From a virus, in the IMG/VR virus record IMGVR_UViG_3300003890_000022, positions 1-25,742 of that record: a stretch of DNA of 25,742 nucleotides. The stretch is one strand, 5' to 3'. The first letter of the stretch is position 1. The number at the start of each line of letters is the position of its first letter. The notes below the pieces were generated by a model. It did no database searches. It had not been told where the DNA came from and worked only from the letters and a program-made list of their open reading frames with translations. Of the stretch, positions 1 through 10,798 are shown piece by piece. Position numbers and translations under genes: made by a program.

Positions 1-697
1 GCATGGCCTCCAGGACCTGATACGCCAGGGGGGCGTAGTTTCCCCCGAAGCGTTGCCCGACGAAGGACTTTCGCAGCCGGTTGCCGTTTGCGCTGAACAG
101 TTTCAGCAGCCTCCGCCTGACTGTCTCCTCTTTCTGCCCCCGCTTTTTTTGCCCTTCGGGCGCAAGGAGAAGTGGTATAGCCCCCTTGCCCGGAGGGGGT
201 ATATCTATCCCTGCGCTCTGGCAAAGCTTGAACACTGCCCTGTATGCCTCTACCCGCTCACACAGCTCCTTTCTCAGTCGTTCTATCTCCTCCCGTTCTA
301 TTTCGGCTGTTAGCTTAAACTCCTCCAACTGCTGGAGAAGCGGGCTGCGCGGCCCCTGGGCCACCAGCTCCTGAGCATTGTTTTCCATTGTTATGACCTC
401 TCCTTTCTGATCCTGGTCTTGTGCCTCCTGGTTGTCCTGTAACGAGTCCAGATCATCTGGCTCTTGTTCTGACAGGCGCCCTTGCTGCTGGAGCCGCAGA
501 TAAGTCCTGGAGTCCAATTCCCCTGAGGCCAGCTTGCGGATGCGGGCCTCTACGGTCTTGGGCAGGTTCTGCCGCGTGCGGGAGATCATGAATCGAACAT
601 CGTCTTTACGATAGAAGTCATGCGATCCCACGCGCTTCTCCAGGTGAAAGCCTGCCCGCTCCAGCATCTGGGCTGCCTTGTAGCTGCTAAGTGCCAA
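1..697 (-). CDS. HicA-like N-terminal domain protein, partial (3' end beyond window)
   Basis: An open frame of 232 codons reads leftward from TTG 697 to the window edge without a stop. Residues about 2-56 resemble the HicA/YcfA mRNA-interferase fold: a helix with LERAGF, then the KRVGSHDFYRK strand containing the GSH triad whose histidine is catalytic in HicA toxins, then a basic strand and a helix (LPKTVEARIRKL). Residues about 57-100 are an acidic, Q/D-rich linker. From about 120 a charged coiled-coil stretch leads to a basic, unrecognised C-terminal region. TTG 697 is chosen because an AAAGGGGG ribosome site lies just upstream and the first helix of the fold needs these residues; the first ATG would delete it. 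No HicB antitoxin gene is visible. It lies divergent to the HNH/terminase operon. HicA homology is by pattern only; an RNA-binding regulator of the same fold is the alternative. Confidence 0.6.
   Translation of the reverse strand, partial: MALSSYKAAQMLERAGFHLEKRVGSHDFYRKDDVRFMISRTRQNLPKTVEARIRKLASGELDSRTYLRLQQQGRLSEQEPDDLDSLQDNQEAQDQDQKGEVITMENNAQELVAQGPRSPLLQQLEEFKLTAEIEREEIERLRKELCERVEAYRAVFKLCQSAGIDIPPPGKGAIPLLLAPEGQKKRGQKEETVRRRLLKLFSANGNRLRKSFVGQRFGGNYAPLAYQVLEAM
386..404 (-). promoter_or_regulatory. internal ribosome-binding site and ATG inside the HicA-like gene
   Basis: On the minus strand AGGAGAGGT (404-396) is followed after 7 nt by an in-frame ATG at 388-386, residue 104 of the HicA-like protein. 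This is a better initiation signal than the one at the gene's own TTG start. It falls at the linker/coiled-coil boundary, so it could yield a separate C-terminal protein lacking the HicA-like domain. Confidence 0.5.
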
Positions 698-1194: not shown

Positions 1195-1782
1195 ATGGTT
1201 AGCAAGGTTGCCAGTCAGAAGAAGAAGGCCCTCGTAAGGCTCAGCCAGTGCGCCCATATCAAGGACACGGGTGAGCAGTGTAGGGCGAAGCCCCTGCGTG
1301 GGCAACCTACGTGCCGTAAGCACACCAGGCACAGACCCACAGACCTGGGTATCTACTCCACCGCCATAGACGCCTCCCTGAGGACTATAGCCTCAGAGGT
1401 AGAGTCCATCGGCAAGCTCAGTGAGCTCCGCAAGACTGACCTGGAGGATGAGATAGCCCTGGCCCGCCTCCAGGTCATGGACTTAATGAAGATGGAGGGC
1501 GTGCCCGCCCTGGTGCGCCTTAAGGCCCTGTCCCTGGTCTCCAAGATCATCAAGGATGCCCATAAGGTTAAAGAGATTGACGCTGCCGCCTTGAATACTA
1601 ACTTCCTGAATAGCATCCTAGAGGCAGTAGCATACTCGTTCCACAGGGCCAACGCCATTGCTGACCCTGCCCAGAGGTCACAGATATTCATCCGCGAGCT
1701 CTCTCTCTGGTTTCCCCAGGTGACCGGTGAGCGCGAGGATGACGGCGACGATGACATAGAGGGTGAACTCGTTGAGGATTGA
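1195..1782 (+). CDS. putative terminase small subunit with zinc-knuckle N-terminus
   Basis: This 195-aa protein sits directly before the large terminase and overlaps it by about 20 nt, the usual place for TerS. Near the N-terminus a C19-x9-C29-x10-C40-x2-H43 set could bind zinc; this short Cys/His module recurs in phage DNA-binding proteins. The middle (about 55-150) is predicted helical, suitable for oligomerisation, and the C-terminus is a very acidic tail (DDGDDD). TerS would recognise phage DNA and hand it to TerL. The ATG at 1195 has only a poor ribosome site. Assignment rests on position and size more than on homology. Confidence 0.6.
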   Translation: MVSKVASQKKKALVRLSQCAHIKDTGEQCRAKPLRGQPTCRKHTRHRPTDLGIYSTAIDASLRTIASEVESIGKLSELRKTDLEDEIALARLQVMDLMKMEGVPALVRLKALSLVSKIIKDAHKVKEIDAAALNTNFLNSILEAVAYSFHRANAIADPAQRSQIFIRELSLWFPQVTGEREDDGDDDIEGELVED

Positions 1783-3496
1783 TGCTCCCCCTGACAAGGC
1801 CAAGGGGTTCCTGGAAGAGCTGAGCCAGCGTATCCAGAACCCTACCCGCCCCCGGAGCGTCTTGAGCCTGTATGAGTGGACGATGCGCTACCGGAGGTTT
1901 GATGGGCGGCCTCCCTCTATCTCCTGGCCGCTGCATGATATCTATCACGATATGCATCCCAATATCGTCATTATGAAGGCGGCCCAGGTGGGCATCTCTG
2001 AGTGGGGCATTAACATGGGCCTCTGGGTCTGCGACCAGAACTGGGCAGACAGGGGTGTCAGCCTCTATGTGTTCCCCAAGCAGGACCAGGTCGACGACTT
2101 CTCCCAGGACAGGGTGATGCGGGCCATCAGGGGATCTGACTATCTCAGGTCCCGCATCAATCACATTGACAGCAGTGGGGCCAACACCAACAGGACCCGT
2201 CTCCGCAAGATAGGTGGCAGGCCCATCTACTTCCGGGGCTCTGACTCTATAGCCCAGACCCGGTCTATCGACGCTGATCTGGTCATCGCAGACGAGGTTG
2301 ACCTGTTCAAGCCAGGGGCCGTCGAGCGTATCAAGGAGCGCCTGGGCTCCTCTGCGGCCCCGCTGTTCAGGGCCTTCTCGCAACCGCTGTATCCCAATGG
2401 CCCCATAGACATGCTGTTCCGGGAGTCAGACCAGAGGTACTACTACCTGAAGTGTGAGCACTGTGGCCTGATCCAGAAACTGGAATGGGAGCACAACGTC
2501 ATCTTCAACATGCCTGTCACTGACGTGCAGGTTGTCTGCCGCAAGTGCCGCCGGCCCATAGACAGGTTGGGCAAGGGCGAGTGGGTGGCCGAACACGAAG
2601 GGGCTTACGTGCATGGCTACCACCTGTCCAAGCTCTACTCCCCCAATGCCAACCTGATTGAGATGGCCTTGAAGTCTATGGCCATCAACGACCCGGAGCG
2701 TTATCAGTCCTTCTATAATGCAGACCTGGGCGTGCCCTACAGGCCAGCCGGTACGCCAGGCCTGGACGAGTTCACCAAAGACTCGTACCCCTGGCAAGAA
2801 CCCCTCCAGGAGAACTACCTGGGCTGTGACGTGGGTACCATGTTGCATGTCACAGTCTACGGGCGCGACAGCATCCATCAGCCCCTGCGCTTGCTGTACT
2901 GCGCTGAGATAGACAAGTTCGAGAAGCTGGAGGAGATCTGGAGGACATTCAATCCGCGCCTGGGGGTCATTGACGGCCAGGGCGATCCCCGCGCGACTAT
3001 CGAGTGGGCCAGCAAGCATCCTGGGCGTGTCTACCGCTGGTTCCACCGTCCGGGGGCGCTCCAGGCCAAGTTCCTGCCGGAGTCTGAATACCAGGTGCAC
3101 TATCACCGCACGGCCCTGCTGGACAACCTGTACGGGCTGCTGCGCAGCAAGTCGCCCGTGAAGGTCATCCTGCATTCACTCGCCCCTCCAGACTTCTGGA
3201 AGCACCACGAGAACAACATCAGGGAGATCATCAAAGATAGCCAGGGCAAGATGGTGCCTCACTATGCGTCTGTGGGGCCTGACCACTACGCTTTTGCCTC
3301 GGCCTTTGCCCTTCTGGCCAGCGGTCTCCGCCCGTCGTCCAGCCAGGGGTTTGTCATCCCCAAGGCAGAGTTTGATGTCCTGGAGCCATTAGCCAGCGTG
3401 GGTAAAGCTGTTACTATCTCTGATGAGGGTACAGAGGCTACCATAAGGTGGTCAGGCACCGGGAGCGGTGGCCGCTGGAACCGGTGGCGTCCCTAG
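1763..3496 (+). CDS. terL: terminase large subunit (lambda GpA-like)
   Basis: This 577-aa packaging motor resembles the GpA family. An ATPase domain has a degenerate Walker A around residues 70-79 (KAAQVGIS) and Walker B LVIADEVD at 173-180 (D177, E178). A Cys4 zinc ribbon (C231, C234, C259, C262) follows. The nuclease domain begins near 350, with candidate metal ligands D356 in GCDVG, D404 in GVIDGQGD and a late aspartate in VGPDHYAFA. It translocates DNA into the prohead and cuts concatemers. GTG 1763 is the longest start; TTG 1772 is better spaced (6 nt) from GAGGGTG and may be the real one. Either overlaps TerS, implying coupled translation. Confidence 0.93.
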   Translation: MNSLRIDAPPDKAKGFLEELSQRIQNPTRPRSVLSLYEWTMRYRRFDGRPPSISWPLHDIYHDMHPNIVIMKAAQVGISEWGINMGLWVCDQNWADRGVSLYVFPKQDQVDDFSQDRVMRAIRGSDYLRSRINHIDSSGANTNRTRLRKIGGRPIYFRGSDSIAQTRSIDADLVIADEVDLFKPGAVERIKERLGSSAAPLFRAFSQPLYPNGPIDMLFRESDQRYYYLKCEHCGLIQKLEWEHNVIFNMPVTDVQVVCRKCRRPIDRLGKGEWVAEHEGAYVHGYHLSKLYSPNANLIEMALKSMAINDPERYQSFYNADLGVPYRPAGTPGLDEFTKDSYPWQEPLQENYLGCDVGTMLHVTVYGRDSIHQPLRLLYCAEIDKFEKLEEIWRTFNPRLGVIDGQGDPRATIEWASKHPGRVYRWFHRPGALQAKFLPESEYQVHYHRTALLDNLYGLLRSKSPVKVILHSLAPPDFWKHHENNIREIIKDSQGKMVPHYASVGPDHYAFASAFALLASGLRPSSSQGFVIPKAEFDVLEPLASVGKAVTISDEGTEATIRWSGTGSGGRWNRWRP

Positions 3497-3505
3497 GAGC
3501 GAAGC

Positions 3506-4996
3506 ATGGTACAGCAAGCCATAGAGGAACTGAGGGCCAGGCAGGGGCAAGAGCTCTACACCGGCTTCACCCAGATAGCAGTCAGCGGGCCCACGCGTTT
3601 TGGCGGGCTCATCCAGGAAGACTTTCTCCCTGAGCTTAACTGGCCCCGCGCCTACAAGGTCTACAACGAGATGCGCAAAAACTCTGCCGTCGTCGGCGGG
3701 TTCTTGCGGGCCATTGAGTCAGCCTTCAGGTCAACCCAGTGGTATACAAGGCCTTACAGTAAGGGGCCTGAGCATGCGGAGAGGGCGCGGTTCCTGGAAG
3801 AATGCATCCATGATATGGCCCGGCCCTGGAACGATGTCATCACCGATATCCTGACCATGCTCCCCTTCGGCTTTGCCCCTATGGAGATGGTCTTCAAGTT
3901 CCGCCAGGGCAGGAGCGTCCAGTATCCGGTACCCAAGTCCAAGTACAACGATGGCCGGGTGGGCCTCAAAGACCTCGTGCTCATCCCCCAGAACGAGATC
4001 ATGGAGTGGGTCTATGACCTGCCCGATAACCCGTGTGAGCTCCTGGGCATCAGGCAGATCACGTCCTCGCCAGCTCCAGGCGGGCCCTCCATCATCAATA
4101 TCCCCGCCAGCAAGATCGTGAACTTCAGGCCACGGGCCGAGAAGGACAGCCCCGTAGGGGAGAGCATCCTGCGGACGGCCTACAGGTCATATTACTTCCA
4201 GAGCAACCTGGAGGTCATCGAAGCCATCTCCCTGGAGCGCACTGGCGCCGGCATCCCCGTCATCGGGCTGCCTGCGGGCGCTACTACTATCCTGGACTCA
4301 GGAGACCAGTCCGACGAGGCGCGGGCCCTGAAGATCGTGAAACAGGTAAGGGCCGACGAGCAGGCAGGCATAGTAAAGCCTGACGGCTGGACGTTTGACA
4401 TCGTCACGTCCAAAGGCCTGCGGCCAGAGTTGTTTGACCTGGCCATCAAGCGCCACAGGGCAAACCTGCTCATCTCCGTCCTGGCGGTATTTCTGGAGCT
4501 GGGCACAGCCCGTGTGGGCAGCAACGCCATGCTCAAGGGCGGGAAGTCCTTCTTTGAGGTCGCCTTTGATGGGTGGGTCATGGGTGTGGAACAGACGTTC
4601 AACAACAAAGTCGTGCCTCTGCTGTTTGCCCTCAACGGCATCGAGGACGAGCCACTGCCTGAGCTGGCCCACACCACCCTGGCGGGCGAAGACCTGGAAG
4701 CCCTTATCAGCTCTGTGGAGAAGCTCGTGTCCATGAGCCTGCTGGATACCTCAGCGCCTGCGCTGCGCACGCACTTCCATCACCTGCTGCGCCTGCCACA
4801 TAATACAGTCGAAGAAGAGTTCATCCCGGAGAGTGAGAAGGATGCTGGTACCCATGAAGGGGAAGCTGATAGTGGAGCCGGAGGAGAGGAATCACTCCTC
4901 GCTTCTCCTGATCCCACAGGCGTCCCCCTCGACAGTGGCGACAGTAATAACATCGGGGAGTCCGGACTTCCGGGTGGGCCAGCGGGTGATCTATAG
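3506..4996 (+). CDS. portal protein (Mu gp29-like, DUF935)
   Basis: This 496-aa protein fits the Mu gp29/DUF935 portal family in size, position after TerL and motifs: NEMRKNSAVVGGFLRAIE near the N-terminus, GFAPMEMVF, IPASKIVNFRPR and an ISLERTGAGIPV segment. Portals form the dodecameric ring at the head vertex through which DNA enters and leaves. The start follows AGGAG by a good spacing. The last 55 or so residues are acidic and rich in Ser, Gly and Pro, probably disordered; this is where a second gene is read in another frame (4842 onward), so the tail composition may be shaped by that overlap. Confidence 0.88.
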   Translation: MVQQAIEELRARQGQELYTGFTQIAVSGPTRFGGLIQEDFLPELNWPRAYKVYNEMRKNSAVVGGFLRAIESAFRSTQWYTRPYSKGPEHAERARFLEECIHDMARPWNDVITDILTMLPFGFAPMEMVFKFRQGRSVQYPVPKSKYNDGRVGLKDLVLIPQNEIMEWVYDLPDNPCELLGIRQITSSPAPGGPSIINIPASKIVNFRPRAEKDSPVGESILRTAYRSYYFQSNLEVIEAISLERTGAGIPVIGLPAGATTILDSGDQSDEARALKIVKQVRADEQAGIVKPDGWTFDIVTSKGLRPELFDLAIKRHRANLLISVLAVFLELGTARVGSNAMLKGGKSFFEVAFDGWVMGVEQTFNNKVVPLLFALNGIEDEPLPELAHTTLAGEDLEALISSVEKLVSMSLLDTSAPALRTHFHHLLRLPHNTVEEEFIPESEKDAGTHEGEADSGAGGEESLLASPDPTGVPLDSGDSNNIGESGLPGGPAGDL

Positions 4997-5081
4997 CAAG
5001 GGAGCGGGTATTACATTGAAGGATGGGGAGAGGCAGTTCTTACTATTGGCCAAGACGGATATCCTGGCGCTGCTGGACTGA
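4842..5081 (+). CDS. GroES-like co-chaperonin overlapping the portal gene
   Basis: This 79-aa protein begins inside the portal gene in another frame. Its segments follow GroES order: KGKLIVEPEE (first strand), a flexible stretch ending in SSLLLIP where the mobile loop with its hydrophobic contact would be, then DFRVGQRVIYSKGAG, and the C-terminal LLLAKTDILALLD matching the GroES ending xxxSDILAIVE. It is shorter than the usual 95-100 residues and seems to lack the roof hairpin, as T4 Gp31 does. ATG 4842 is chosen because GGAGAG lies 8 nt upstream; GTG 4833 is an alternative. About 155 nt overlap the portal. A phage GroES would cap the host GroEL barrel to fold capsid or other head proteins. 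Homology is strong by eye but untested. Confidence 0.75.
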   Translation: MLVPMKGKLIVEPEERNHSSLLLIPQASPSTVATVITSGSPDFRVGQRVIYSKGAGITLKDGERQFLLLAKTDILALLD

Positions 5082-5087
5082 GCCGGG

Positions 5088-5279
5088 GTGGACACTTTGG
5101 TCAACTTCATAAAAGAGGTCGGGTTCCCCATTGCGGTGGCCGCCTACGTGCTTGTGAGGCTGAACGGCAAGATGGATAGGGTGGTCAGCGCACTGCAGGA
5201 GCTGACCCGTGCCATAGAGCGCCAGCAGGCTGTACAGACAGCCATTTCAGAGGAGCACAAGCGGCACAGTGAAACTTGA
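5088..5279 (+). CDS. YvrJ-like small membrane protein
   Basis: This 63-aa protein has one N-terminal membrane segment (VGFPIAVAAYVLVRL) followed by an amphipathic helix (MDRVVSALQELTRAI) and a polar tail, the layout of the YvrJ family, whose function is unknown though members often occur in phage and prophage loci. It follows the GroES-like stop by 6 nt and overlaps the next gene by 11 nt. The start could be GTG 5088 or TTG 5097; GGGG lies a few bases before the latter. Its place among head genes rather than lysis genes is unusual; a holin-like or membrane-anchoring role is only a guess. Confidence 0.7.
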   Translation: MDTLVNFIKEVGFPIAVAAYVLVRLNGKMDRVVSALQELTRAIERQQAVQTAISEEHKRHSET

Positions 5280-6651
5280 TGAGACTCTAGGGCGGTCTCT
5301 CCAGCAGGCAGTCTTTGAAGCCTGCCAGCACGATGCGCTGTCTCCCGAAGAACAGATCCGGCTTAATGAGGCCATAGGTGATGCCCTGGCCAGCGTGGCT
5401 CCGGATCTGGGCAACTTGCTGGAGCGGCCCGTCATCTCCAAGCGGCTGCGGCAAGCGTTCTCCTCCATCGGTGGCAAGGCGGCTATTGCCAAAGACCTCA
5501 TAGCCGCCTTTCCCCCTCACCGTGTCTATGTAGAGCCGTTTGCTGGCGGGGCGGCTGTCTTCTTCAGGAAAGAGAAGACGCCCCAGGAAGTCCTCTCGGA
5601 TATGTCTGAAGATGTCACGTTCATCTACAAGGCTATCCAGAATCTCTCGGATGAGGACATTGCCGCTCTCCAGCGCAGGAACTGGGTGGTAGACCGTGAC
5701 CTGTTTAACAGGCTGAGGGCAGAGTACCGGGCAGCGACATGGCAATCTGACCTGGACAGGCTATACTGCCTGCTGTATCTCAGGCATGCGGTCTTCGGCT
5801 CAGGTGACCCGTCCAAGTCCGTAGATATCAGTGCCCTGGGTAAGACGCTGACCATACCTTATGACTTGCCTGACATCCGTGAACGCCTGTCGGGCGTCAC
5901 CGTGGTCCGGGCTGACGCGCGGGATGTCATCAAGCAGCTGGATAGCCCCGACACTCTCTTTTACCTGGACCCTCCCTATCCGGTGGGCACCGGCCAGCGC
6001 AAGGACTACGCCTATGGGGCAGAGTTCACCGTTGATGACCTGAAAGAGCTTTTTGATATCCTCTCCAGGATCAAGGGTAAGTTCCTGCTGTCCATTCCGG
6101 CTATCCTGCAGCCGCTGGTGCCCAGCCAGTTCCGCGTGGGCCTGATTAACACGCCCGTCCTGGCCGGGAGGCAACGGATTGGGTCACGGGAGCTGGTAGT
6201 CGCCAACTATGACCTGCCCTATGAGCAGCAGGCAGTCCAGAAGGATGAGATCGAGATACTGAAGGCCGACGGAGAGAAAAGGCTGGCCACTCTCATCGTC
6301 ATGAAGCCCTGGTTTGTGGACTATGAAGACCAGTGGGCTGACCCGGAGACCATAGAGGCGGCAGCCCACAGGTGGCTCTTGAAAGGGGCCCGCATCTTTC
6401 TGGAGCACGAGGTGGACATCTCAGATAAGGTTCGGGCCGTTGAGTCCTACGTGGCCCCCATTGACATGACCATCGCGGGGCGCCAGGTTCTCCAGGGCAC
6501 CTGGATCATCGTGGTCTGGGTGCCCGACGACGAGCTCTGGCAGTGGGTCAAGGAAAACCAGGTGGGGGCGTCTGTGCGGGGCCTGGCTGCCCTGGAGAAG
6601 GGCTCACCCGCCAGGGACAATGGGCGGGTCAATGTGCGAGCACGAGTGTAG
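5269..6651 (+). CDS. DNA adenine methyltransferase fused to XkdF-like prohead protease
   Basis: This 460-aa protein has two unrelated parts. Residues about 60-320 are a D12-class (Dam-like) N6-adenine methyltransferase: the AdoMet motif VEPFAGGAA (88-96) and the catalytic DPPY (234-237), in that order. Residues about 335-440 match the XkdF/Peptidase_S78_2 pattern: IVMKPWFVDYEDQW, TIEAAAHRWL, LEH with candidate H380, VESYVAPID with candidate S393, and a GTWIIVVWV strand. XkdF-type proteases process scaffold and capsid proteins inside the prohead, and no other protease gene lies in this head module, which supports the second assignment. GTG 5269 overlaps the YvrJ-like gene and has GAGGAG 13 nt upstream. 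The frame is continuous across the junction with no sign of a lost stop. Confidence 0.85.
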   Translation: MKLDETLGRSLQQAVFEACQHDALSPEEQIRLNEAIGDALASVAPDLGNLLERPVISKRLRQAFSSIGGKAAIAKDLIAAFPPHRVYVEPFAGGAAVFFRKEKTPQEVLSDMSEDVTFIYKAIQNLSDEDIAALQRRNWVVDRDLFNRLRAEYRAATWQSDLDRLYCLLYLRHAVFGSGDPSKSVDISALGKTLTIPYDLPDIRERLSGVTVVRADARDVIKQLDSPDTLFYLDPPYPVGTGQRKDYAYGAEFTVDDLKELFDILSRIKGKFLLSIPAILQPLVPSQFRVGLINTPVLAGRQRIGSRELVVANYDLPYEQQAVQKDEIEILKADGEKRLATLIVMKPWFVDYEDQWADPETIEAAAHRWLLKGARIFLEHEVDISDKVRAVESYVAPIDMTIAGRQVLQGTWIIVVWVPDDELWQWVKENQVGASVRGLAALEKGSPARDNGRVNVRARV

Positions 6652-6856
6652 GGACGCCGTTCATGAATCAGCGATGCCGTGGCCGTCATGCAACCCTTGC
6701 CCTGCTTGCAGAAGGAACATAATATACGGTGAAATCAATCAGCACCTGAGGAGGTGCCACTCAAAATGCCATTCGCAGGATACAGAGACTTCGCAGACTG
6801 TGTCGCCCAAAATAAAGATAAAAAGAACCCTGAAGGATACTGCGCCTCTATCATGA
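6632..6856 (+). CDS. small zinc-finger protein, Rad18/UBZ4-like spacing
   Basis: This 74-aa frame fills the gap between the protease and scaffold genes. After an N-terminal CEHEC it holds one finger, CPACRRNIIYGEINQHLRRC, with C-x2-C-x11-H-x3-C spacing and the CP, NI, IN and HL positions seen in Rad18-type (UBZ4) fingers. The C-terminal 30 residues overlap the scaffold gene in another frame and look random. ATG 6632 (or 6620, four codons earlier) has GGGCGGGT nearby but no ideal ribosome site. The finger is too regular to be easily dismissed as chance, yet there is no independent support for expression; a remnant or an unexpressed frame remains possible. Confidence 0.45.
   Translation: MCEHECRDAVHESAMPWPSCNPCPACRRNIIYGEINQHLRRCHSKCHSQDTETSQTVSPKIKIKRTLKDTAPLS
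6748..6756 (+). promoter_or_regulatory. ribosome-binding site deciding the scaffold start
   Basis: GAGGAGGTG lies 9 nt before ATG 6766. The upstream in-frame GTG (6754) is part of this site itself, so ATG 6766 is taken as the real scaffold start. Confidence 0.75.
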
Positions 6857-7809
6857 GGCAGGTAGAGAAGTCACATAAAAGGTTGACAGGCGTGAAAGAT
6901 TCCGAACAGACTGATATACAGATTACTGATCTTGATCCTGGTGAGGTCTCTCTAACCAAGAGGCCGGCAGTAAGGGAGAAGACACTAATGGTAAAAAGCG
7001 AAGTCCTGAACGAGCAGCAGCTGGCTGAGCTGGCAAAGTCACTCAACATCAAAGTTGAGGAGCTGACCCCGGAGAGCATCCGGAAGGCAGAGGAGGAGAT
7101 CAAGAAGGGCATTCTTCCCTTCCAGCAGCCTCCCCAGCAGCCCCCCCAGCAGGAAGACCAGAAGCCCAAGCTGCCTCCCATGCCTGAGCTGGACAAGTCG
7201 GTGAGCCAGTATGTCGCCCTGGCGGCCAAGACGCTGGCCCCGGTGATGTCCAGCCTTCCTGAGGAGATCCAGAAATACTTCGGCAGTGCCCTGGCCTCGC
7301 CCATGCTCAGCAAGGCCGAAGCCCAGGCTGAGCAGGCCGAGATCATCAAGTCCATGCTGCCCGGCGTGGTCAATGAGATTACCAGGCCCCTGTCCGACAA
7401 GATCGGCACCCTGGAGGCAACGGTGGGAGAGCTGACCCGCGCTGCCGAGCTCAGCGCCATGCGCGAGGTTGCCAAGTCCATCAGCCCTGATGTCGAGGGC
7501 ACGGCGGCCTTTCTGGTCGATCTCAAGAAGGCCGTTTCCCAGGAGAAATTCGATGCCTTTGTGGAGCAGCAGAAGCGCCTGTACGCTGCCGCTGCGGCCA
7601 GCGACGCCTTCAAGCAGCTCTCCAAGAGCTCCCAGGACGAGTCGCCAGTTGCCAAGATTGACCGCCTGGCGCAGGAGATCATCGCCAAGTCTGAGAACCC
7701 TGGCGACCCTGTAGTCAGGGCCAGGGCGCTTGAGCAGGTGCTCAGGGCCAACCCTGAGCTGGCCCGCGAGTACGAGCGGGACATGAGCGAGCGGGCTGCA
7801 TCCAGGTAG
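6766..7809 (+). CDS. scaffold-like head assembly protein
   Basis: This 347-aa protein lies between the protease and the decoration/capsid genes, the usual scaffold position. It opens with a two-cysteine motif (GYRDFADCV, then NPEGYCASI) that recurs at the start of phage head proteins. Next comes GEVSLTKRPA, resembling the SLVDxPAN motif common near the N-terminus of XkdF-type protease and scaffold proteins, then a Pro/Gln-rich linker (PFQQPPQQPPQQ), and then about 230 residues of charged helix with coiled-coil character. It would template the capsid shell and be removed by the neighbouring protease. The assignment is from position and composition. Confidence 0.6.
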   Translation: MPFAGYRDFADCVAQNKDKKNPEGYCASIMRQVEKSHKRLTGVKDSEQTDIQITDLDPGEVSLTKRPAVREKTLMVKSEVLNEQQLAELAKSLNIKVEELTPESIRKAEEEIKKGILPFQQPPQQPPQQEDQKPKLPPMPELDKSVSQYVALAAKTLAPVMSSLPEEIQKYFGSALASPMLSKAEAQAEQAEIIKSMLPGVVNEITRPLSDKIGTLEATVGELTRAAELSAMREVAKSISPDVEGTAAFLVDLKKAVSQEKFDAFVEQQKRLYAAAAASDAFKQLSKSSQDESPVAKIDRLAQEIIAKSENPGDPVVRARALEQVLRANPELAREYERDMSERAASR

Positions 7810-7825
7810 TTAACGGAGGGACAGA

Positions 7826-8227
7826 ATGGCCTACGAAGAGAACGTAAAGTACATCGGTACTTTCAAGTCCAGCGCAGACCTGTCGGCTGCCGTCAACCAG
7901 TTCCGGCCTGTGAAGCTGGCCAGCGCGGCGGGCCAGGTTGCCCTGGCCAGCGCGGCCACCGATGTCGTCATCGGCGTCCTGGCCAACAAGCCAAAGGCCG
8001 GAGAGGTTGCCCGCATCGCCGACGTGCAGGCAGGCGGCATTGGCAAAGTCCGCATCGGGGTAAGCCAGACCATTGCCGTGGGAGACAAGCTCACCGCGAA
8101 TGCCTCTGGTGATGCCGTAAAGGCATCCAGCGGCAACCAGGTCTTTGCCCTTGCCCTGGAGGCGGTCACCACTGGTGCCGCCGAGCGGGCTGTCATCGCA
8201 GCCAAGTTCGTCCAGATGGTAGCGTAG
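7826..8227 (+). CDS. head decoration protein (DUF2190-like)
   Basis: This 133-aa protein, rich in Ala, Val and Gly, is preceded by a strong GGAGGG site. The pattern of short beta strands, with VIGVLANKPKAGEVARI, GKVRIGVSQTIAVGDKL and a C-terminal AKFVQM strand, is typical of DUF2190 capsid-cement proteins. These trimers bind the outer capsid lattice and stabilise expanded heads. Its position directly before the major capsid gene agrees. Confidence 0.82.
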   Translation: MAYEENVKYIGTFKSSADLSAAVNQFRPVKLASAAGQVALASAATDVVIGVLANKPKAGEVARIADVQAGGIGKVRIGVSQTIAVGDKLTANASGDAVKASSGNQVFALALEAVTTGAAERAVIAAKFVQMVA

Positions 8228-8240
8228 GAGGGAAACTGGT

Positions 8241-9200
8241 ATGCCTATTGACCAGCCAGGGGCACGCGACGTTCACGTCGATACGCTCCTTACTAACATC
8301 TCTATCGCGTACACCAATGAGGAATACATCGCTGACAAGATTTTCCCCATTGTGTACGTCCAGAAGCAGTCAGACCTGATTGCCTCCTACGACAAGCACG
8401 ACTTCCTGAGCGCTGTCATGCAGCCCTACATCCCTGGCACGGAGGGGGCACGCAGCGGCTACAAGGTCGATACCTCCCGCAGCTACTTCTGCAAGGGCTG
8501 GAAGCTTGGCAAGCTCATCACCGATGACCAGGTAGCCAACCAGGACGCGCCCTTCAACGCCTTCGCTGATGCGGCGGCCTACCTTCGGGAGCAGGCGCAA
8601 CTCAGGTGGGAGCTGGAGTTTGCGAACAACTTCTTCGCAGCCTCCAAGGGCTGGCAGGACAAGACGGGCGGCACGGACTTCGTGCAGTGGTCTAACTACG
8701 CAGGCTCCAACCCCATCTCTGACCTGCGCCTGATGGGTGACCTTATCCGGCAGAAGACGGCTCGCAAGCACAACACGACGGTGTTTAGCAAGCAGGTATG
8801 GGACACCCTGGTAGATCACCCCCTCATCGTGGACAGGCTGAAGTACACCACCAAGGATTCCATCACTCCTGACATGCTGGCCCGCCTGGTGGGCTACGAG
8901 CGCACGCTCATCGGCTCTGCCATCTACGCCCCCAACATTGAAGACACGGCCAACGCCAATGCCGTGTCTGAGATCTGGGGCAAGCATGTCCTCCTGGCCC
9001 ACGTGGCGCCCAGGCCCTCCCTCCAGATGCCGACTGCCGGGTACACGTTTGTGTGGAAGCCTATCACCAACACCCCTTACTACTTCAGGCGCCTGCGCAA
9101 CGAGGAGCGGGAGACCGACATCCTGGAGATCAAGAGCTACTTCGACATCAAGCAGATTGATGGTGACGAGGGCGTGTTCCTCGCCAATGCGATAGCGTAA
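8241..9200 (+). CDS. major capsid protein
   Basis: This 319-aa protein follows GGAGGG with good spacing. Its N-terminus (LLTNISIAYTNEEYIADKIFP, given here in part) is typical of the major capsid proteins of many siphoviruses with HK97-like folds related to lambda gpE: YIADKIFPIVYVQKQSD, then a GWKLGKLITDDQVANQD segment and a C-terminal YFDIKQID strand. Several hundred copies form the icosahedral shell. It has no obvious long pro-domain, consistent with a separate scaffold upstream. The stop overlaps the next start (TAATG). Confidence 0.9.
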   Translation: MPIDQPGARDVHVDTLLTNISIAYTNEEYIADKIFPIVYVQKQSDLIASYDKHDFLSAVMQPYIPGTEGARSGYKVDTSRSYFCKGWKLGKLITDDQVANQDAPFNAFADAAAYLREQAQLRWELEFANNFFAASKGWQDKTGGTDFVQWSNYAGSNPISDLRLMGDLIRQKTARKHNTTVFSKQVWDTLVDHPLIVDRLKYTTKDSITPDMLARLVGYERTLIGSAIYAPNIEDTANANAVSEIWGKHVLLAHVAPRPSLQMPTAGYTFVWKPITNTPYYFRRLRNEERETDILEIKSYFDIKQIDGDEGVFLANAIA

Positions 9201-9526
9201 TGTCCAGACCTCCAAGATACTTCTCAACCAGGAATATGACCTACGGCGCGGAGCAGGTTGAGGCCGGGGAGATTATGCAACTGCGCGGACATATGAATGA
9301 TGCCGTGCTCCTCAGGGTGGGGTACATCGCTAAGGCTGCCGACCACTACCCGGTTGTCGAGATCGCACAGTGTGTACGGTGCGGGAAAGAATTCGTGGAC
9401 TCCTCCTTCAAGGCGGTGCACGACGCCAGGTGTGGCCAGCTGGAGCTCGACATCGGCGCAATACCAGGGGGCAACATAATCTCCTCGGCTGACCCTGCTC
9501 TCGTCGGTGAGGCCGTTGATGACTAA
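9200..9526 (+). CDS. small C2HC zinc-finger head protein
   Basis: This 108-aa protein starts in a TAATG overlap with the capsid gene. Residues about 58-78 carry CVRCGKEFVDSS...H...C, a C-x2-C-x12-H-x3-C set that should bind one zinc ion. The N-terminal half is mixed alpha/beta, the C-terminal 30 residues acidic and probably flexible. Small finger-bearing proteins after the capsid gene occur in other phages but I know of no defined function. Coupling to the capsid gene suggests a virion or assembly role. Confidence 0.65.
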   Translation: MSRPPRYFSTRNMTYGAEQVEAGEIMQLRGHMNDAVLLRVGYIAKAADHYPVVEIAQCVRCGKEFVDSSFKAVHDARCGQLELDIGAIPGGNIISSADPALVGEAVDD

Positions 9527-9538
9527 CGAGGTGAACCC

Positions 9539-9874
9539 ATGCAGGTAGATGGCAGAGGAGGCGTCCTGGTTGCCGCCAGGTTTGCTGGTGACGCCAAGCA
9601 GAAGTCGGCAGCCCTGAAACTCGTTGGCACGCTCAGCGTGGATCCACCCAACCAGGCTGCTGCAGGCAGCTTTAACGTTGATGTCGCCCTGCCTGAAGCT
9701 AAGGTGGGTGACGTTATCATCCTGCAGCCCCCGGAGACGCTGGAGGACACGCTGACCTTCATCGGTGCCGCTGTACAGGCTGCCGGCAACGTCCGCATCC
9801 GCCTCAGGGCCTCAGCGGCTGTTGATGGGGCTGCCCGCACCTGGGGCTTTGCTCTCTTCGGCAAGACCGACTAA
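9539..9874 (+). CDS. small beta-rich virion-type protein, unknown
   Basis: This 111-aa protein has a good ribosome site (GAGGTG). It is made of short hydrophobic strands (GVLVAARF, VGDVIILQPP, LTFIGAAVQ, NVRIRLRASA) and ends RTWGFALFG, suggesting a beta-sandwich. It lies between capsid and connector genes. I do not recognise the family; head decoration or neck protein are both reasonable. Confidence 0.6.
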   Translation: MQVDGRGGVLVAARFAGDAKQKSAALKLVGTLSVDPPNQAAAGSFNVDVALPEAKVGDVIILQPPETLEDTLTFIGAAVQAAGNVRIRLRASAAVDGAARTWGFALFGKTD

Positions 9875-9878
9875 GTAG

Positions 9879-10259
9879 ATGGCTAACCTGAACCAGAATA
9901 CAGTCGTCCTGCCTTCGGCGGTTAGGTCAGCGTCTACGACTTCTCCGGATATGGGCAACCTGGCAGGCAGGGGTGCCTATATCGTCCTGAACGTCACAGC
10001 CGTCCCCGGTGTAGACTCTATAACCCTGGCCATAGATGGCAAGGATCCTGTATCAGGCCAGTACTTCACCCTCCTGACGGGTAGCGCCCTGACTACAACG
10101 GGCGCCAGGGTATATCTGGTGTACCCCGGCGCCCCGGCGGCTGCAGGGGGCATCACGGCCACCACCGGTTTTCCCCTACCCATGACCTGGCGCGTCAGGA
10201 TTACCCACTCTGGCACGGGAAACTTTACGTACTCCGTTGCCGCTCTGGTGGTGTTATAA
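9879..10259 (+). CDS. beta-sandwich virion protein of a widespread phage family, unknown role
   Basis: This 126-aa protein contains GRGAYIVLNVTAVPG, SITLAIDGKDP, TTGARVYLVYPG and TWRVRITHSGTGNFTYSVAA, a pattern I recall from many siphovirus structural regions, always between the capsid and connector or tail genes. It looks like an all-beta surface protein. The exact role has not been settled to my knowledge. The ribosome site before ATG 9879 is weak, and the gene follows its neighbour by 4 nt. Confidence 0.68.
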   Translation: MANLNQNTVVLPSAVRSASTTSPDMGNLAGRGAYIVLNVTAVPGVDSITLAIDGKDPVSGQYFTLLTGSALTTTGARVYLVYPGAPAAAGGITATTGFPLPMTWRVRITHSGTGNFTYSVAALVVL

Positions 10260-10261
10260 GT

Positions 10262-10798
10262 GTGGCTATCGAGAAGACTCCTGGAGATGTCCTGGCGCAG
10301 ACGACTCTGCTCTGCCGCCACATGCTGGCGCAGTCCGGGGGCGCCTTTACTCAGACCTCATTCCCCTCTGAGGCTGACGCCCAGCTGGCCATAGACGCCG
10401 CTGAGGCAGAGATCCTGAGCTGGCTGGCGGCCTTCAGGTACTCGACAGACCTGAGCTCTTACTCTGATACCGCCAAGGTATTCCTGTCCGGCTACAACGC
10501 CCTGGGTGCAGCCTACAGGCTGGAAATGGCCCACACGGGCCTAACGCACTCCACGACCCCCAGTAACAGGGCAGACTCATACTACCTGCTCTACATGGAC
10601 CTCTACAAGAAGCTGGAGTCCGGAGTCTTGCAGCTGGATGGCCTGGGCGTACCCCGCTCCTCTGCCCGCCTGTCAGCCTCTGTGACAGGCGTGAGTGCGT
10701 CTGACAAGAAGATACTGGAGCAGGACGCCGATGCCGTGCAGGCTCTGTTTAAGAGGGACGGCTTCAAGTTCAGGAACCAGGAGATCACTGAAACGTGA
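10262..10798 (+). CDS. head-tail connector (adaptor-like) protein
   Basis: This 178-aa helical protein begins at GTG 10262. Its size and helix-rich pattern (DAQLAIDAAEAEILSWLAAF, then FLSGYNALGAAYRLEMAHTG) resemble the adaptor proteins that dock under the portal ring. It is the first of three connector-type genes that overlap end to end, which supports the assignment; the sequence itself is not decisive. Confidence 0.55.
   Translation: MAIEKTPGDVLAQTTLLCRHMLAQSGGAFTQTSFPSEADAQLAIDAAEAEILSWLAAFRYSTDLSSYSDTAKVFLSGYNALGAAYRLEMAHTGLTHSTTPSNRADSYYLLYMDLYKKLESGVLQLDGLGVPRSSARLSASVTGVSASDKKILEQDADAVQALFKRDGFKFRNQEITET

Follow-up and report, generated by a model that had tools for sequence, protein, structure and literature searches.

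Two unlike enzyme domains, a DNA adenine methyltransferase and a prohead protease, lie within one polypeptide encoded by a phage, which raises the question of whether the methyltransferase is carried into the phage head by the protease or is simply expressed along with it. The gene was studied in a window comprising the whole 25 742-nucleotide stretch of the IMG/VR record IMGVR_UViG_3300003890_000022. The first-pass annotation had described a continuous frame joining a Dam-like methyltransferase to an XkdF-type prohead protease; the frame was found to be uninterrupted over 460 codons from its GTG start, and the nearest in-frame stop on its 5' side is at position 5215.

Gene neighbourhood and domain composition

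The features of the fusion gene and of the neighbouring head genes are given in Table 1. The fusion gene is placed in the position of a prohead protease because the terminase, portal and YvrJ-family genes lie upstream of it and the scaffold, decoration and capsid genes downstream. In the window proteins that were compared with Pfam, no second protease turned up. The scaffold candidate matched no Pfam or PHROG family and was assigned through a relative.

Table 1. Features of the fusion gene and adjacent head genes (window positions; residues are those of the fusion protein)
Feature	Position	Strand	Basis or remark
Terminase large subunit, GpA type	1763–3496	+	Pfam, PHROG
Portal protein, Mu type	3506–4996	+	Pfam, PHROG
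Small YvrJ-family ORF, 11-base overlap with fusion start	5088–5279	+	Pfam
D12 adenine methyltransferase and XkdF/S78_2 prohead protease fusion gene	5269–6651	+	460 residues, GTG start
Helical N-terminal stretch, residues 8–51	5290–5421	+	Secondary structure of predicted model
D12-class N6-adenine methyltransferase domain, residues 60–316	5446–6216	+	Pfam, motifs, Dam fold
Short linker from methyltransferase to protease, residues 317–328	6217–6252	+	Gap between Pfam matches; model confidence lower at about 321–330
Peptidase_S78_2 (XkdF) prohead protease domain, residues 329–440	6253–6588	+	Pfam, model, invariant residues
Lys332 codon, conserved Lys at cargo/protease boundary (50/54)	6262–6264	+	Hypothetical autoprocessing site
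Probable scaffold protein, N-terminal motif EVSLTKRPAVREKTLMVK	6754–7809	+	Relative 3' of L181 fusion, E 3e-23
Decoration/cement-type head protein	7826–8227	+	Pfam, PHROG; best PHROG named head scaffolding protein
Major capsid protein	8241–9200	+	phrog_1005

Both halves gave significant Pfam matches, as the first-pass annotation had led one to expect: MethyltransfD12 (PF02086) at residues 67–275 (E 4.5e-19, 69.6 bits versus a cut-off of 22) and Peptidase_S78_2 (PF14550) at residues 329–440 in the C-terminal half (E 1.5e-17, 64.2 bits versus a curated cut-off of 24), followed by an 18-residue tail to the C terminus; the PHROGs search of the fusion protein agreed with these calls. The methyltransferase motifs comprise GGK (residues 68–70), the VEPFAGGAA (88–96, with FAGG at 91–94) and DPPY (234–237) already noticed. 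With the NCBIfam Dam-subfamily model TIGR00571 the protein scored 70.8 bits, below the cut-off of 114.85 bits; the methyltransferase half is thus Dam-like and outside the Dam subfamily by this score. Judged by its motifs, it is an active-looking adenine methyltransferase of the Dam type.

In an alignment of 54 relatives H380 and S435 were invariant (54/54 each), as were P347, D351, G433 and G438. S435 sits in GASVRG, the counterpart of GFSxGG in other XkdF proteins, and position 393 is Ser in 43 of the 54 and otherwise Asn, Thr or Leu. Of the pair first put forward as catalytic candidates, H380 and S393, the histidine was therefore retained and the serine replaced by S435; by analogy with other prohead proteases, H380 and S435 are the candidate catalytic His and Ser.

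Predicted structure

The AlphaFold2 model of the full fusion protein had a mean pLDDT of 84. Modelled residues 59–315 superposed on E. coli Dam (2g1p) with Z 24.3, 229 aligned residues and an rmsd of 2.1, and the methyltransferase half also matched T4 Dam. The protease half modelled alone had a pLDDT of 74; a Foldseek search with it gave no match at E under 0.001, and the S78_2 sequence gave no match with a convincing E-value to solved structures. On realignment the T4 prohead protease gp21 (5jbl) ranked first (Z 9.0, 119 aligned residues, rmsd 2.8), followed at far lower scores by rows that included herpesvirus proteases (Z 4.5 to 3.5), a ranking that fits an assemblin/prohead-protease fold for the modelled S78_2 half. 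A0A6J5PIT0, a protein of 700 residues from an uncultured phage with the name 'Zeta toxin domain containing', has a BFVD model that also matched that of the window protein; the match may run through the protease half, and this protein perhaps bears another type of cargo.

Relatives and domain architectures

Searches with patterns from the window protein found no relative in viral contigs, and tblastn of the fusion against phage and plasmid records matched one half at a time only. The fusion could be taken as unique from these searches, but alignment-based searches did find relatives; these were reached with an S78_2 alignment and an alignment of the methyltransferase clade, the alignment of all S78_2 domains being too diverse for a pattern search. 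Dozens of contigs carry the two domains joined in this way, so the fusion is neither unique nor the assembly error that had been considered as its source.

The first S78_2 scan separated two architectures. Tailed proteins extend at the C terminus for 80 residues or more beyond the protease and have no more than 98 residues before it, without long enzyme cargo; a stretch like EVSLVDRAANKRRFLVVK, the strongly conserved N-terminal motif of the window scaffold candidate and of the scaffold genes of relatives, precedes their protease. In the C-terminal architecture (type B) S78_2 is always the last domain and follows a long N-terminal cargo of about 110 to 2052 residues. One such protein from a Bacillota genome (L167, 1173 residues) combines DNA ligase, D12 methyltransferase, a LigD-type phosphoesterase and S78_2, and its gene lies between MuF/portal and scaffold/capsid. 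The methyltransferase-clade scan added L181, L183, L185, L186, L188, L192 and L201, all ending in S78_2. Among these the L181 fusion (857 residues) has, before its methyltransferase, a stretch resembling the N-terminal helical part of the window protein in an unscored comparison by eye; L188 has two methyltransferases; L201 (2168 residues) has three, together with a SAM methyltransferase, a ligase and the C-terminal S78_2; and L183:1794–7130 encodes a 1779-residue methyltransferase–ligase–protease polyprotein with additional Hint/intein and LAGLIDADG matches resembling an intein-like insert.

With the S78_2 domains of four fusions as queries 80 loci were retrieved. Every one of them had the C-terminal architecture, and the region before S78_2 measured 111 to 1814 residues. 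Judged from their IMG numbers, L270, L272–L275 and L277, which carry fusions, seem to derive from isolate genomes. After deduplication D12 was present in 31 of 82 type-B ORFs, or in 32 of 83 (window included) once L167, which had been misfiled through a split match, was added; these loci were fetched by similarity and several queries were picked because they carry the fusion, so 32/83 is not a prevalence. Two or more methyltransferases were present in five of the 31. Among 54 type-B proteins scanned for domains there were 21 with D12, 14 with DNA ligase, five with a SAM methyltransferase and one case each of Acb1, UDG and a 2'-5' RNA ligase domain; by these matches the companion cargo is DNA- or nucleotide-directed. 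Some N-terminal regions had no recognised enzyme. In L072:164–4372 (1403 residues) an Acb1 (anti-CBASS) domain, a SAM methyltransferase and a DNA ligase are combined with a C-terminal S78_2.

The methyltransferases of L182 and L184 had no recognisable S78_2 fused to them. In L184 the cargo adjoins a protease gene: a 2011-residue ligase/metallo-beta-lactamase/methyltransferase protein (2124–8156) overlaps the start of an 869-residue capsid fusion (8132–10738) that matches the PHROGs 'major head and protease protein' and 'head maturation protease'.

Several annotated candidates were rejected as fusions. ORFs annotated 'DNA methyltransferase' in Lactococcus, Pseudomonas Boevelstad and Rhizobium phages proved to be protease-only, their label probably being a transferred one. 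S78_2 proteases of L003 and L004 (MN988558, PQ464592) and of KX456209 are labelled 'DNA methyltransferase' or 'DNA methyltransferase/prohead protease'; no methyltransferase was found in the ORFs of L003, L004 or L002, the last a relative of KX456209, and the misplaced name was probably transferred from fusions. The 'XkdF' and 'SAM methyltransferase' of DLP5 are apparently separate genes, going by the table for the related phage DLP3.

Synteny, phylogeny and selection

At least one head gene was recognisable near 80 of the 83 type-B ORFs. Portal, MuF or terminase lay upstream in 67, scaffold downstream in 76 and capsid downstream in 69 of the 83, the labels having been assigned loosely by iterative phmmer and six loci being labelled on the unexpected side as well. 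Cargo domains have been gained and lost among the relatives. The first-pass alternative, that the methyltransferase is carried along for expression, is made less likely, because the slot and the C-terminal protease are fixed among proteins whose cargo differs greatly in length and content.

The first methyltransferase tree had 107 rows, of which 90 were stand-alone; apart from these, the domains of 12 fusions and of five other long ORFs grouped together (100/95). In an enlarged tree the clade contained 28 fused, six long-ORF and one stand-alone row (100/95); the last is most likely L295 783–1751, since no other short methyltransferase ORF among the loci added for this tree is unfused, and the same phage also encodes a fusion. 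Judged from these trees, the fused methyltransferases are one dedicated clade separate from ordinary phage Dam genes, the borders of which may shift because sampling went by similarity to fused proteins. The window methyltransferase reaches at best 39% identity to another fused methyltransferase domain. The SAM-binding and DPPY motifs are kept across the aligned fused copies, and between L185 and L186 dN/dS was ∼0.22 for the methyltransferase, ∼0.10 for the protease and ∼0.38 for the linker; both enzyme halves are under purifying selection in this pair.

In L327 two adjacent genes bear a methyltransferase. One is the protease fusion; the other, which follows it (7287–9119), encodes a scaffold-type protein whose D12 domain is located just after the N-terminal motif EVSVVDQAANQRRFLIVK and before a repeat-rich part. 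This double cargo on two probable prohead-internal proteins favours head targeting over convenience of expression.

Proposed role of the fusion

The prohead connection drawn in the first-pass annotation was strengthened by the assemblin/prohead-protease fold, the slot between portal/MuF and scaffold/capsid, the methyltransferase clade and the scaffold-borne copy of L327. From the observed domains, predicted folds, conserved catalytic residues, head-operon slot, recurrence and clade, we infer that the fusion is a prohead maturation protease with a methyltransferase as cargo, and that this cargo is packaged, probably freed by self-cleavage, ejected and used against restriction; we hold this reading to be probable, if by no means secure. 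The protease domain would bring the fusion into the assembling head, as expected of its relatives, and would there process scaffold and head proteins. It would probably also cut off its own N-terminal cargo, so that the methyltransferase would be trapped in the head, ejected with the DNA and able to methylate the phage genome on its arrival in the next host, so that this genome would be shielded from restriction. The enzyme is probably in the particle and delivered with the DNA because dozens of phages share the fusion in the head-gene slot; the window protein itself is divergent and its behaviour is therefore extrapolated from distant relatives.

A Lys is present at the start of the protease domain (K332 in the window protein) in 77 of 84 sequences of a wider set, and the scaffold motif likewise ends in FLxxK. 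Cleavage after conserved Lys residues such as Lys332 is offered as a hypothesis only, as a conserved strand residue would look alike. Packaging of such proteins has precedents: a stand-alone S78_2 protease was detected by mass spectrometry, with two peptides, in DLP3 virions (PMC7326821), and in phage P1 the Dar proteins, including DarB of ∼2000 residues, are packaged and co-ejected, DarA being cut by the prohead protease (PMC12810830).

The methyltransferase could equally act on phage DNA in the producing cell. That it acts only there, methylating late, before or during packaging, with the fusion serving to place it near the portal or to co-express it with late genes, we regard as unlikely. 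Phages often have stand-alone Dam-type genes (197 records gave a match), whose products shield DNA without being packaged, and the fusion is part of a late operon; left unexplained are the joining to a head-internal protease and, in L327, also to a scaffold, the ligase, Acb1 and repair-type domains in the same position and the separate methyltransferase clade devoted to the fusion. A structural or DNA-binding role, as a spacer, a scaffold-like ruler or a DNA tether for assembly with methylation secondary, is improbable: it would suit the wide range of cargo lengths and the N-terminal regions lacking a recognised enzyme, and it has against it the conserved SAM-binding and DPPY motifs and the clear purifying selection on the methyltransferase in L185/L186. 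A neutral merger of neighbouring genes by loss of a stop codon, with the methyltransferase as passenger, is very improbable given 32 deduplicated fusions from diverse contigs in one clade with a fixed domain order and slot, even if late phage genes are densely packed and relatives gain and lose cargo domains.

If the methyltransferase is indeed a packaged cargo, many uncultured phages would bring ready methyltransferases, as many as three in some polypeptides, which could act before phage gene expression, a widespread anti-restriction route beside P1 Dar and the T4 internal proteins. More tentatively, the S78_2 protease with its scaffold tail as a separate gene may be a general cargo loader, through which N-terminal and sometimes scaffold-borne DNA-modifying, DNA-joining or signal-degrading enzymes would enter the head, be freed at a hydrophobic-Lys site and be delivered with the genome. 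Should packaging of the methyltransferase hold true, the fusions would also point to a natural signal by which selected proteins could be brought into phage heads.

Relation to known systems

The E. coli and T4 Dam enzymes share fold and motifs with the methyltransferase half, whereas the window enzyme is fused and scores under the Dam-subfamily cut-off. XkdF of the PBSX/P335 type, a stand-alone PF14550 protein, has the same protease domain and portal-to-capsid slot; unlike the fusion it bears a C-terminal tail, probably a scaffold part, and no N-terminal enzyme. The T4 internal proteins are anti-restriction proteins that are packed in the head and ejected. The P1 Dar system is a functional analogy, its anti-restriction proteins being packed in the head, ejected and in some cases processed by the prohead protease (PMC12810830). 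Unlike the fusion, P1 and T4 keep their cargo separate from the protease, and P1 DarB is a methylase-helicase with a methylase architecture different from that of the D12 half.

Polyvalent proteins combine disparate enzyme domains, with N6A methylase among the hubs, and by prediction accompany the DNA into the host; their assemblin-like peptidases are always C-terminal, probably for virion assembly (Iyer et al., 2017; PMC5512222). The window fusion resembles them in its unlike enzymes, C-terminal assemblin-type peptidase and virion-gene setting, and is a minimal two-enzyme, divergent member, with 460 residues whereas many polyvalent relatives exceed 1000. The main text of that study gives the assemblin-like peptidase only a few sentences, and XkdF is named nowhere in that text (PMC5512222). 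PHROG 13242 (450 positions, 'unknown function') holds the same pair, with the methyltransferase at about 6–252 and S78_2 at about 311–425. The window protein matched it in two stretches (E 2.5e-44, the best covering 37–296) and L186 at 2.1e-151, the window protein being the more divergent relative.

The C-terminal assemblin-like peptidase in polyvalent proteins and the methyltransferase–S78_2 pair in PHROG 13242 were thus known, and the packaged-enzyme idea had already been outlined in a brief prediction of 2017, which, if the present reading is true, becomes testable. The present analysis contributes the assignment of the candidate catalytic serine, the predicted fold, the figures on the slot, the recognition of a dedicated clade and the methyltransferase borne by a scaffold protein.

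Other features of the window

CTAG is strongly depleted across the whole window (16 seen versus 51 expected), and CATG and GATC less so. The depletion of GATC (103 seen, 144 expected) is not specific, since CATG and CTAG fall further below expectation. Elsewhere in the window a weak HicA-like match lies at the left end (2–697, minus strand), an HNH endonuclease match at 807–1028 and a BppU_N-like match at 23 941–24 267 (minus strand).
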